Below are positions 51,754-55,507 of a DNA stretch of 64,000 nt, piece by piece. The DNA is taken from contig JAKSKR010000001.1 in the NCBI GenBank assembly GCA_024401645.1, forward strand, positions 62,001 through 126,000. Direction: 5' to 3'. Origin of the DNA: Paludibacteraceae bacterium. Its GTDB lineage: Bacteria > Bacteroidota > Bacteroidia > Bacteroidales > Paludibacteraceae. Within the stretch, counting starts at the first letter, position 1, and each line of letters opens with the position of its first letter. The notes below the pieces were generated by a model. That model ran no database searches, had not been told where the DNA came from, and worked only from the letters and a program-made list of their open reading frames with translations. The position numbers and the translations under genes are program-made.

Positions 51754-53097
51754 TTACATACCAGTGTAGTTGCTTGGGCTAATAGCCTTAAGCTCCTGCT
51801 TCACGCTGTCGCTAACTTCAAGGGTGTCGATGAAGTCGTGGATTGACTTTTCGGTGATGGCAGTGTTTACACGGGTAAGGTTCTTCAAAGTCTCGTAAGG
51901 GTTAGGGTAGCCTTCGCGACGGAGTATGGTCTGAATGCCTTCTGCTACAACTGCCCAAGTGTTGTCGAGGTCGTACTGTAGGCTTTCTTCGTGAAGAAGC
52001 AACTTGCCAAGGCCCTTCAGTGTGCTCTTAATGGCGATGATGGCGTGTGCCATTGGTACACCCACGTTGCGGAGCACGGTACTGTCGGTAAGGTCGCGCT
52101 GCAAACGAGATACAGGCAACTTTGCTGACAAGAACTGGAAGATGGCGTTGCTCATGCCAAGGTTACCTTCTGCGTTTTCGTAGTCAATTGGGTTGACCTT
52201 GTGTGGCATTGCGCTTGAACCCACTTCGCCAGCCTTAATCTTCTGCTTGAAGTAGCCCAATGAAATGTACATCCAGAAGTCGCGGTTCATATCAATCATG
52301 ATGGTGTTGATGCGCTTCATGCAATCGAACAACGCACCCATGTTGTCGTAGTTAGAAATCTGTGTGGTCCACTGCTCGCGCTGCAAGCCAAGAACGTCGT
52401 CAACGAAGTGGTTGCCGAATGCCTTCCAGTCAATAGCTGGGTATGCAACGTGGTGAGCGTTGAAGTTGCCGGTTGCACCACCGAACTTGGCGCTGTAAGG
52501 AATCTGCTTCAACTGTTCCAATTGGGTGTTAAGACGGCTAACGTAAACCATAATTTCCTTGCCGAGGCGGGTAGGAGATGCTGGTTGTCCGTGTGTGCGT
52601 GCCAACATAGAAACATCCTTCCATTCGTTAGCCTTTTCCTGAAGGGTATCGATCAACTGCTGTAGGGTTGGAATGTATTCGTTGGTTACAGCTTCCTTCA
52701 AGGTGAGAGGAATAGAAGTGTTGTTAATGTCTTGTGAGGTCAAGCCGAAGTGGATGAATTCTTTAGGCTGGCTCAACTTCAAGGCGTCGAACTTTTCCTT
52801 AAGGAAGTATTCAACCGCCTTAACGTCGTGGTTGGTGACGCTCTCAATTTCCTTGATGCGCTGTGCGTCAGCCAAGGTGAACTCCTTATAGATGTTTCTC
52901 AAGGCAGGGAACACGCTGTGGTCAACGCCTTTCAACTGCTCGAGTGGCAATTCGCAGAGGGTGATGAAATACTCGATTTCGACGCGAACGCGGTAGCGGA
53001 TAAGTGCATATTCTGAAAAATATTCGCCTAATGCGTCTACTTTGTTGCGGTAACGACCGTCAATCGGAGAAATTGCGGTAAGTGAGTTCAATTCCAT
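51754..53097 (-). CDS. purB: Adenylosuccinate lyase
   Basis: A 447-residue fumarase/aspartase-superfamily enzyme acting twice in purine synthesis (SAICAR to AICAR, and adenylosuccinate to AMP). The superfamily signature loop GSSAMPHKVNPIDYENAEG carries the catalytic serine. ARTHGQPASPTRLGKE carries the catalytic histidine. The N-terminal SPIDGRYRNKV is typical of the E. coli-like branch. It is transcribed alone from a promoter at 53145-53152. Confidence 0.96.
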   Translation of the reverse strand: MELNSLTAISPIDGRYRNKVDALGEYFSEYALIRYRVRVEIEYFITLCELPLEQLKGVDHSVFPALRNIYKEFTLADAQRIKEIESVTNHDVKAVEYFLKEKFDALKLSQPKEFIHFGLTSQDINNTSIPLTLKEAVTNEYIPTLQQLIDTLQEKANEWKDVSMLARTHGQPASPTRLGKEIMVYVSRLNTQLEQLKQIPYSAKFGGATGNFNAHHVAYPAIDWKAFGNHFVDDVLGLQREQWTTQISNYDNMGALFDCMKRINTIMIDMNRDFWMYISLGYFKQKIKAGEVGSSAMPHKVNPIDYENAEGNLGMSNAIFQFLSAKLPVSRLQRDLTDSTVLRNVGVPMAHAIIAIKSTLKGLGKLLLHEESLQYDLDNTWAVVAEGIQTILRREGYPNPYETLKNLTRVNTAITEKSIHDFIDTLEVSDSVKQELKAISPSNYTGM

Positions 53098-53243: not shown

Positions 53244-53251
53244 TATCTTTG
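53244..53251 (+). promoter_or_regulatory. -7 element of the Rpn nuclease gene
   Basis: TATCTTTG, 23 nt before the ATG at 53275. It excludes the in-frame 24-codon upstream extension. Confidence 0.5.
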
Positions 53252-53274: not shown

Positions 53275-54219
53275 ATGTGTATACCCGGAACGGCATTATC
53301 TCGCTACATTAACTTCTATACCGACTTCGCCTTTAAGAAGATTTTCGGTACAGAGGCAAACAAAGATTTGCTCATCAGCTTCCTGAACGGTCTGTTCAAC
53401 CTGGAAGGCGATGAGGCTATTGAAGACGTCACCTACCTCAACACCGAGCAGCTGGGCGAGAATGCGTTCGACAGGCGTGCCATATACGACGTGTATTGCA
53501 AGACCGGCAAGGGTGAGCGCTTTATTGTGGAGATGCAGAAGGCGCTGCAAGACAGCTTCCGCGACCGTGCACTCTATTACTCCTCTTTCGCTGTTCGCGA
53601 TCAGGGCGTGAAGGGCTCAAGGTCACGTCCGTGGGACTACCGTTTGGCGCCTGTGTATGTGGTGGGCGTACTCAACTTCGAGATGCAGGGTAGTAATCCC
53701 GACCGCTACATCACCCATGTGAAACTCAAGGACGATGACAATCAGGTGTTTTCGGAAAACCTGAATTTCGTTTTCCTGGAAATGCCAAAATTCAACAAGA
53801 CCGAAAACGAACTAGATACGTTCTGCGACAAGTGGCTCTTTGTCTTAAAGAACCTTTACAAGCTTGAAAATTGTCCCGCAGCCCTCACCGAGGGCATATT
53901 CCGCAAGCTTTTCGAGGTGGCAGAAATTGCATCGTATTCGACTAACGAACGCTCGGTTTACGAAGAGAGCTTGAAAAACCTCTGGGACTTGAACAACTGC
54001 CTTGAAACAGCAGAACGCAAGGGAAAGGAAGTGGGACGTGAGGAAGGACGTGCAGAAGGACGTGCAGAAGGCGAGGCTATCGGCTTGGAGAAAGGACGTG
54101 CAGAAGGTGAATACGCAAAAAGCATGGAGCATGCAAAGAAGATGAAGGCAAAAGGCTTTTCTTTACAAGAAATTGCAGAAATCACAGAACTTAAAATAGA
54201 AGAAATAGAAAAACTGTAA
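53275..54219 (+). CDS. Rpn-family PD-(D/E)XK nuclease (transposase-like)
   Basis: A 314-residue protein. The N-terminal FTD-type start (YINFYTDFAFKKIFGTE) is diagnostic of the Rpn / PDDEXK_2 family. The nuclease core has Asp72 in IYDVYCKTG and Glu86-x-Gln88 in FIVEMQ. The C-terminal part contains in-frame GRAE repeats (about 254-278) and a helical tail (SLQEIAEITELKIEEIEKL) like a helix-turn-helix. E. coli Rpn proteins cut DNA and promote RecA-independent recombination; some act in phage defence and are held in check by a short product made from their own C-terminus. Here the tail is duplicated just downstream. Confidence 0.88.
   Translation: MCIPGTALSRYINFYTDFAFKKIFGTEANKDLLISFLNGLFNLEGDEAIEDVTYLNTEQLGENAFDRRAIYDVYCKTGKGERFIVEMQKALQDSFRDRALYYSSFAVRDQGVKGSRSRPWDYRLAPVYVVGVLNFEMQGSNPDRYITHVKLKDDDNQVFSENLNFVFLEMPKFNKTENELDTFCDKWLFVLKNLYKLENCPAALTEGIFRKLFEVAEIASYSTNERSVYEESLKNLWDLNNCLETAERKGKEVGREEGRAEGRAEGEAIGLEKGRAEGEYAKSMEHAKKMKAKGFSLQEIAEITELKIEEIEKL
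53962..54053 (+). repeat. Direct repeat, copy A, within the Rpn gene
   Basis: 92 nt coding for the LKNLWDLNNCLETAERKG part of the nuclease C-terminus. It matches 54240-54331 at 83 of 92 positions by my count, with no gaps. Confidence 0.85.
54034..54105 (+). repeat. 12-nt in-frame tandem repeat (Gly-Arg-Ala-Glu)
   Basis: GGACGTGCAGAA or close variants occur at 54034, 54046, 54058 and 54094, interrupted once by 24 nt. Each unit codes for GRAE or GREE, so slippage would change length but not frame. Confidence 0.8.
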
Positions 54220-54344
54220 TGAATGTGCTGACCGCTGAAGAAGAGGAATTGAAACTCCTCTGGGACTTGAACAAATGCCTTGAAACAGCAGGACGCAAAG
54301 GTAAGGAAGTGGGACGTGAGGAAGGACGTGCGATGATGGGCTAG
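54219..54344 (+). pseudogene. 41-codon duplicated fragment of the Rpn C-terminus
   Basis: An open frame of 41 codons starts with an ATG that overlaps the nuclease stop (TAATG), so it could be translated by re-initiation. After about 7 unrelated codons it repeats the nuclease tail (LLWDLNKCLETAGRKGKEVG, then REEGRA) and ends at a TAG after AMMG. It lacks the final helix of the parent. The simplest reading is a relic of an unequal duplication or of a decayed neighbouring Rpn gene; a small regulatory protein is possible. It is too short to be called from coding statistics. Confidence 0.6.
54240..54331 (+). repeat. Direct repeat, copy B
   Basis: Second copy of the 92-nt element at 53962-54053, lying 187 nt after the end of the first. 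Confidence 0.85.
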
Positions 54345-54529: not shown

Positions 54530-55507
54530 ATGAAGTTGAGATATATTACAACACTTTTGATCTCCATGCTCTGTTTTACAGGCTTGAAGGCTCAAGATGA
54601 GATCGTTTACGACCAGTATTTCTGGAACTACTATCTCGTAAACCCTGCAGTTGCCGGCGCTAGCCGTTGCTCACACGTAATGGGTACATTCAAGAAGCAG
54701 TGGGTAGGTATGGATGACTCTCCAATTACCGGAACATTGAGTTTCCGTACCCGTATCTTGAAGAACCTCGGTTTAGGTGCTTATGGTTACTACGACAAGA
54801 ATGGTTATTCTCTTCGTCAGGGTGGTCAGGTATCATTGGCATACCACATTCCGCTTACACAGAACTATGGCTACTTCATGAAGGACCGTGAGTTGCAGCG
54901 TCAGTTGTCATTCGGTCTTTCTGCAGTCATCAACCACTATGGCTTCGACTCAAAGTTGTTCGAAGACGAAGATGCTTTGAGCGATAACACAATTGTGAAT
55001 GGTGGTGAGGATAAGGGTACTTATTTCAATGCCAACTTCGGTACCTACTTTATGTGGGACCGCTTCTTCGCAGGTTTGTCAATCGCAAACTTGTTGCCTA
55101 CCGAACTTGAGCAGCTTGGTGCCGACGAACCCGTTCGTCCAATGACCTTCTTCATCTTCGCAGGTTACACCTTCCCGGTTAATAGCACAATCGACATCGA
55201 ACCATCAGCAATGTTCAAGTTCGATGAAAATGATAACCGTCAGTTAGACATTAACTTAAAGTACGAGCAGGTGTTGCCAGACAATCCTGACTTCTCTTAT
55301 TGGCTGCAGATGGCATATCGCCACGGCTTGGATCCGGACAACTCACAAGGTTTGGCATTCTCACCAATGGGTGGTATCAACTACAAGGGTTTCCACATTG
55401 GTTATGCCTATACCCTTGGTTTGACCGATATTCAGCGTCACAACTCTGGTACCCACGAGGCCATGCTTGGCTACTCATGGTGTAAGGTTAAGAAGTTCTG
55501 CCGTTAA
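54530..55507 (+). CDS. PorP/SprF family type IX secretion membrane protein
   Basis: A 325-residue outer-membrane barrel protein. The signal peptide ends near TGLKAQDE (about residue 22). The family start DQYFWNYYLVNPAVAGA follows, close to the classic QY-x(n)-NPA-x-AG. Barrel-like strands run to the C-terminus. PorP/SprF proteins pair with T9SS substrates that carry a type-B sorting domain and are usually encoded directly upstream of them, as here. I start at the ATG at 54530; a GTG six codons upstream gives a worse signal peptide. The codon bias suggests strong expression. Confidence 0.92.
   Translation: MKLRYITTLLISMLCFTGLKAQDEIVYDQYFWNYYLVNPAVAGASRCSHVMGTFKKQWVGMDDSPITGTLSFRTRILKNLGLGAYGYYDKNGYSLRQGGQVSLAYHIPLTQNYGYFMKDRELQRQLSFGLSAVINHYGFDSKLFEDEDALSDNTIVNGGEDKGTYFNANFGTYFMWDRFFAGLSIANLLPTELEQLGADEPVRPMTFFIFAGYTFPVNSTIDIEPSAMFKFDENDNRQLDINLKYEQVLPDNPDFSYWLQMAYRHGLDPDNSQGLAFSPMGGINYKGFHIGYAYTLGLTDIQRHNSGTHEAMLGYSWCKVKKFCR

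Follow-up and report, generated by a model that had tools for sequence, protein, structure and literature searches.

A truncated tail copy behind an Rpn-family nuclease gene of a Paludibacteraceae genome is probably a decaying relic, within a wider pattern of separate Rpn tail reading frames in Bacteroidales

A 41-codon open reading frame (ORF) starts on the stop codon of an rpn-type nuclease gene in the 64,000-nucleotide stretch of Paludibacteraceae DNA analyzed here (the window). Most likely it is a decaying, truncated relic, left after the 3′ end of the nuclease gene was duplicated downstream. The copied segment is cut short and carries amino acid changes, it is absent behind a twin of the gene, and its counterpart in a sister genome is broken; the window copy is presumably without function. 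The features of the locus are as follows.

51754-53097, minus strand: purB, on one flank of the nuclease gene, named from its translation
53244-53251, plus strand: candidate -7 element TATCTTTG upstream of the nuclease gene, read from the sequence
53275-54219, plus strand: rpn-type PD-(D/E)XK nuclease gene, 314 amino acids from the ATG, TAA at 54217-54219
53962-54053, plus strand: first copy and source of the repeat, encoding residues 230-260 of the nuclease, within a predicted long helix (223-292)
54073-54207, plus strand: gene residues 267-311, an 8-residue repeat insertion among them; tail portion that aligns to residues 8-44 of RpnA-S
54219-54344, plus strand: 41-codon ORF, its ATG (54219-54221) overlapping the nuclease stop
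54240-54331, plus strand: truncated copy of the nuclease tail, from repeat alignment, blastn and tail profile
54533-55504: PorP-type gene (porP), ATG at 54533, on the other flank of the nuclease gene, named from its translation

The gene matches PF12784 (E = 4.5e-67; 226.6 bits against a Pfam cut-off of 27.4) and the Rpn family model TIGR01784 (121.9 bits, above the NCBIfam cut-off of 52.1), which bears out its initial annotation as an Rpn-family nuclease. Residues D72, E86 and Q88, invariant across 49 aligned sequences, lie on two strands of the structure model, 71-77 and 82-90, and we take them to be the PD-(D/E)XK catalytic residues. The family models and these residues place the gene, as judged from its sequence, in the Rpn nuclease family. 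A search of the PDB with the sequence gave a single, unrelated match (E = 1.2), and a Foldseek search of the PDB with the model gave nothing at E ≤ 0.001, the weak rows including restriction-type enzymes.

The upstream element TATCTTTG fits the Bacteroidota -7 element, with the consensus TAnnTTTG; the identical string lies upstream of two paralogs in the same genome (C45 and C56). Promoter, gene and partial tail copy form a unit lying between purB and porP. The genus comprises six genomes including that of the window. In G001, purB and porP are adjacent with no rpn gene between them, and in G004 they are neighbors across an 840-nt gap devoid of rpn similarity; G002 has porP (purB is absent from the stretches read), and porP is cut at a contig end in G003 and G005. 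The PorP-type gene of the window and another in the same genome (G000:C22:19203-20159) share 96% protein identity, and G002 likewise carries two PorP-type genes.

Comparison of the end of the gene with the sequence behind it confirmed the initially annotated 92-nt direct repeat: 53962-54053 recurs at 54240-54331 with 90% identity, no gaps and a spacing of 278. Its blastn E value of 1.3e-30 rules out a chance repeat, and an assembly artefact is unlikely because the two copies differ by 10%. The repeat presumably arose by duplication or unequal recombination. The second copy was described as open, and indeed it lies in a 41-codon frame joined to the gene by TAATG, in which the ATG of the ORF and the TAA of the nuclease have one A in common. 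The openness of this frame is weak evidence, because the copy stems from a stretch that was already coding and the frame closes only some 10 nt past the similarity. The ORF has no Pfam and no NCBIfam match.

The initial annotation held that the copy lacks the terminal helix. This helix is indeed absent, and more is absent with it. The tail helices of the nuclease are predicted at 223-292, 297-304 and 308-313 (mean pLDDT of the model, 70.7), and the copy lacks the rest of the long helix and both terminal helices, because it corresponds to gene residues 230-260 only. We built a profile from 36 tails and compared it with the E. coli antitoxin domain RpnA-S (PDB 7TH0); profile positions 45-81 aligned with 7TH0 residues 8-44 at E = 8.9e-6, a match that twelve other sequences, including pentatricopeptide and other helical repeat proteins, exceeded in score. 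The aligned part of the gene tail (54073-54207) has no counterpart in the window copy. On the profile the window gene spans positions 2-84, the copy 8-38 and E. coli ypaA 33-80; position 84 is reached by the tail ORFs of L089, L105 and C56 (copy 1) and by the L088 mini-gene, all described below. In the structural alignment of the L088 mini-gene model, RpnA residue 244, the start of RpnA-S, corresponds to mini-gene residue 30 and profile position 21. By this model-based mapping the window copy would reach no further than the beginning of RpnS helix 1, without its rest or helices 2 and 3, and a three-helix antitoxin domain is thus not apparent in the sequence of the ORF. Nor did the ORF match the C-terminal part of TIGR01784 at E ≤ 1; L034, the L088 mini-gene, L089, L105, L205 and ypaA gave matches within positions 187-273 of this model, below the whole-protein cut-off.

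To place the substitutions separating gene and copy, 24 codons of both were set against 13 other segments, of which 10 are distinct: three copies behind genes and, for the remainder, gene tails or the L157 mini-gene. Gene and copy differ at 11 bases, nine of which, in five codons, changed on the side of the copy; in each of these codons the encoded residue differs as a result. Eight of the nine bases occur in none of the 13 segments, and one is common to the copy in the sister genome (C217). The replaced residue is found in all 13 segments for S to E, N to L and N to K; for Y to E, 12 of the 13 have Y and the C217 copy has a stop, with one base in common with the window copy; for E to G, nine have E and four have K. 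One of the two silent differences is a change on the gene branch, the base there being peculiar to the gene and its twin, and the second is unplaceable, relatives having either base. So few silent changes (0 of 5, or at most 1 of 6) have probabilities of 0.004 and 0.016 at an omega of 0.1, 0.029 and 0.10 at an omega of 0.2, and 0.39 and 0.73 under neutrality. Pairwise over 30 codons, dS is 0.129 and dN 0.102. The ORF thus gives no sign of purifying selection and appears to fit neutrality, with few changes available. Weak constraint on the copy, or selection for a new role, is conceivable.

The window genome (2.70 Mb, 58 contigs, 71% completeness), whose nearest named relatives are Paludibacteraceae gut MAGs, yielded 24 protein matches to the nuclease, grouped into 16 gene loci; in the same protein search tail copies were found behind the gene at 2 of the 16, the window locus and C56. 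The twin gene, C45, has 99% amino acid identity and the same stop, and no tail copy follows it. At C56 (79% identity; array at L025 1096-1870, G000:C56), an exact 337-bp tandem duplication creates a complete tail ORF (copy 1), followed by a truncated one. This third copy of the array has 4 mismatches in 101 nt and spans profile positions 5-42. In the sister genome, G005:C217 has the gene and a related copy whose frame stops at codon 5. Both the C56 and C217 copies have an in-frame ATG just after the stop of the gene, as in the window. C56 and C217 are similar in the 5′ part of the gene, the gene end and the copy and dissimilar in the flanks, and the tail copy therefore seems to travel with the rpn unit.

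These arrays bear on the idea that the repeat serves as a recombination substrate, with unequal crossing over lengthening or swapping the tail repeats and the copy acting as DNA rather than as protein. The mismatch-free duplication at C56, with the same 337-bp step separating that repeat from the third copy, would fit such exchange, as would repeat numbers that differ among copies and genes. The window, however, has no trace of such an exchange, and the exact duplication at C56 is in a MAG and may be an assembly effect. We consider this explanation quite improbable.

Complete tail ORFs were found behind rpn genes of relatives. Among 80 rpn loci, five offered less than 60 nt of sequence after the gene; 75 were assessed, 70 of them with at least 500 nt. 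Tail copies lay within 500 nt at three of the 75 loci, L080 (the same sequence as G005:C217), L089 and L105, and L088 has a separate tail copy about 2.1 kb away. Other flank matches were whole or contig-cut paralogs (L081, L107, L148, L150) or short (L131, L139). We fetched 20 further regions and left out ten that were cut by contig ends (L202, L206-L212, L218, L219).

At L089 (G089:C179), a complete tail ORF begins 46 nt behind the stop, and gene and copy differ by 16.5 silent and 6.5 amino acid changes over 83 codons (dS 0.404, dN 0.034). A second locus of the same genome, L241, has the last 96 bases of a gene at the contig start, then a spacer and a complete ORF. Counting the stop and the ATG, the spacers of the two loci agree at 49 of 52 nt; the copies compared with each other give a dS of 0.225 and a dN of 0.040. 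Both complete copies, in this one genome, look selected by their excess of silent changes. L200 1779-2135 (G106:C24), an exact copy of 118 tail codons from a native ATG that may be an assembly artefact, sits behind an rpn gene of another subfamily; like C56 copy 1, it is exact and hence uninformative on selection. For L105, dS is 0.126 and dN 0.179 over 115 codons, with an N-terminal part that aligns poorly; over the last 82 codons, one silent and four amino acid differences (dN/dS 0.97) show no silent excess, and this ORF was dropped as a selected one. With the L105 ORF as query against 295 genomes of the order, two matches other than itself fell in frames below 130 aa. Both come from the genome of L105: G501:C121, where a contig begins, and G501:C135, a frame of 97.

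The L089 copy has one four-residue repeat more than its gene in the alignment, and ypaA likewise has one extra repeat relative to RpnE; the repeat number of the gene is kept in C56 copy 1, L105 and L200. Because one added repeat abolishes inhibition in E. coli RpnC, according to the preprint PMC10327210, the L089 copy and ypaA may be mismatched with their own genes. Elsewhere, L205 1438-1683 (G143:C39) is a diverged tail ORF of 82 aa that immediately follows an rpn frame devoid of its nuclease half; it was set aside as a clean example, as the preceding frame begins mid-gene. In L201 (G106:C2), two rpn tail frames of 131 codons, nearly identical, lie some 1.4 kb from each other.

The small ORF had been proposed to supply the inhibitor of the nuclease from a separate downstream copy instead of an internal start. 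Inhibition by an Rpn C-terminal product is known biology, the antitoxin RpnS being made from an internal start, and a separate downstream source is known from E. coli ypaA (Zhong et al. 2023, preprint PMC10327210); for the window copy the proposal is not supported, as most of the RpnS domain is gone. A working short antitoxin of 41 residues, pairing with the first part of the nuclease tail helix and made by coupled translation, would agree with the coupled ATG and open frame, with the published biology of RpnS (PMC10327210), with the start of the first RpnS helix predicted by structural alignment, and with the complete downstream copies of G089 that look selected. However, most of the RpnS domain is missing, the five codons altered in the copy all change the residue, the twin gene has no copy, the C217 counterpart stops early and the TIGR01784 match is absent. 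Moreover, since inhibition in E. coli RpnC is lost with a single extra repeat (PMC10327210), a helix cut after its first repeats is unlikely to match. We regard a working antitoxin as unlikely.

The alternative of a relic, already raised in the initial annotation, fits better with the truncation, the residue changes, the twin without a copy and the early stop in the relative. The open frame and coupled start run counter to it, as do the in-frame ATGs of the C56 and C217 copies, the predicted beginning of the first RpnS helix and the complete copies behind two genes of one relative. As a relic, the copy would have arisen when the 3′ end of the nuclease gene was duplicated downstream, by duplication or unequal recombination. 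It would have retained the linker and first repeats of the tail helix and lost the rest of the RpnS domain; with conserved residues altered, probably no working antitoxin is made. Translation may be coupled at the TAATG junction, and any peptide would be expected to be inert.

A second type of separate tail gene has arisen by deletion. Such mini-genes occur in 6 of the 16 genomes of genus g27, and a start-motif search of stretches fetched from those six genomes gave 12 copies, not counting a full-length gene that shares this start. Nine are intact (at least 77 codons), and three are shortened to 35, 57 and 62 codons; the copies have similar upstream sequence (loci L161, L203, L204 and L213-L216). 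In the L034 mini-gene, the upstream sequence and first seven codons resemble those of the L088 full-length gene and are fused in frame to the tail, and in that full-length gene ACAG lies near both ends of the stretch missing from the mini-gene. Among the nine intact mini-genes (36 pairs), dS ranges from 0.22 to 1.25 and dN/dS from 0.04 to 0.40; pooled over four non-overlapping pairs, dN/dS is 0.07. Gene conversion from full-length genes may have imported constrained sequence into these copies, although few donors are apparent. These ratios argue that the g27 mini-genes are maintained by selection as separate genes.

The L088 mini-gene matches TIGR01784 at 210-271 and the RpnA model at 243-287. 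Its structure model (pLDDT 72.2) had 7TH0 (RpnA-S) as the best row among 92 chains, with a Z score of 5.5 that is modest for a helical bundle (next row, 4.3), at 2.2 Å over 46 of 46 residues. The mini-genes thus appear homologous to RpnS, with a predicted RpnA-S-like fold in the one modeled. Only one of the six genomes (G178) has a full-length match of more than 50% identity, the other five being without a close parent; all six genomes are 88-100% complete. L157, in G003, is a deletion form of a second kind whose junction lies elsewhere; it is recent, since its 72-nt tail segment is identical to that of a full-length gene on the same contig. Across 393 genomes of the order searched at E ≤ 1e-14, five matches were listed, each in a frame of at least 220 aa. 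Judging from translations, some mini-genes lie among putative Rhs-like fragments and others elsewhere; L203 3915-5504 and the flanks of L034 and L040 carry repeated putative AAA-ATPase-like genes and Rhs-like fragments.

Tail-only ORFs thus recur around Bacteroidales rpn genes by two routes, downstream duplication and in-frame internal deletion, and this recurrence is new here. Tentatively, and with confidence that stops somewhat short of probable, we propose that the antitoxin part of Bacteroidales Rpn systems repeatedly left its gene-within-gene state, by tail duplication or by in-frame deletion with the promoter and start of the parent retained. The deletion form would, in one Paludibacteraceae genus, have spread as selected orphan antitoxin genes without a close parental nuclease, perhaps acting against incoming Rpn nucleases, and the window copy would be a failed product of the duplication route. 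Taken alone, the window feature carries little weight, being a degenerate case of what E. coli already shows. The wider pattern merits testing more than the window ORF. It suggests that PF12784 genes of Bacteroidota readily give rise to separate RpnS-like genes, on independent occasions, some of which are retained although no close nuclease is present. It bears on the ways in which the toxin and antitoxin of Rpn systems can come apart and on the purpose of an orphan antitoxin.

The window arrangement itself is of an already known kind, because ypaA adjoins rpnE in E. coli. According to PMC10327210, rpnES (ypaA) and rpnCS are separate downstream genes of independent origin, rpnCS occurring in some strains; some species encode RpnS as a gene of its own, under the annotation DUF4351; and the ypaA protein was detected. 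In MG1655, RefSeq labels ypaA a pseudogene. Among the papers listed, none dealt, judging by title and opening of the abstract, with tail-only genes of PF12784 rpn in Bacteroidota. Like the copies of L089, L241, L105, L200 and C56 (copy 1), the window copy lies behind an rpn gene and derives from the same source region; unlike it, those copies extend to the tail end. As with the intragenic RpnA-S (7TH0), the full-length gene of the window has a homologous tail, whereas its small ORF is without most of that domain. As in E. coli rpnE-ypaA, a second Rpn C-terminus forms its own ORF directly behind a full-length gene, although RpnE belongs to PF04754 and the window nuclease to PF12784. The spacing differs, ypaA lying 12 nt behind rpnE and the window ORF overlapping the nuclease stop. 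In ypaA the 3′ end is repeated from just before the internal start, the AAAAGGAG stretch included, and it spans profile positions 33-80, in contrast to the window copy, which spans 8-38 only.
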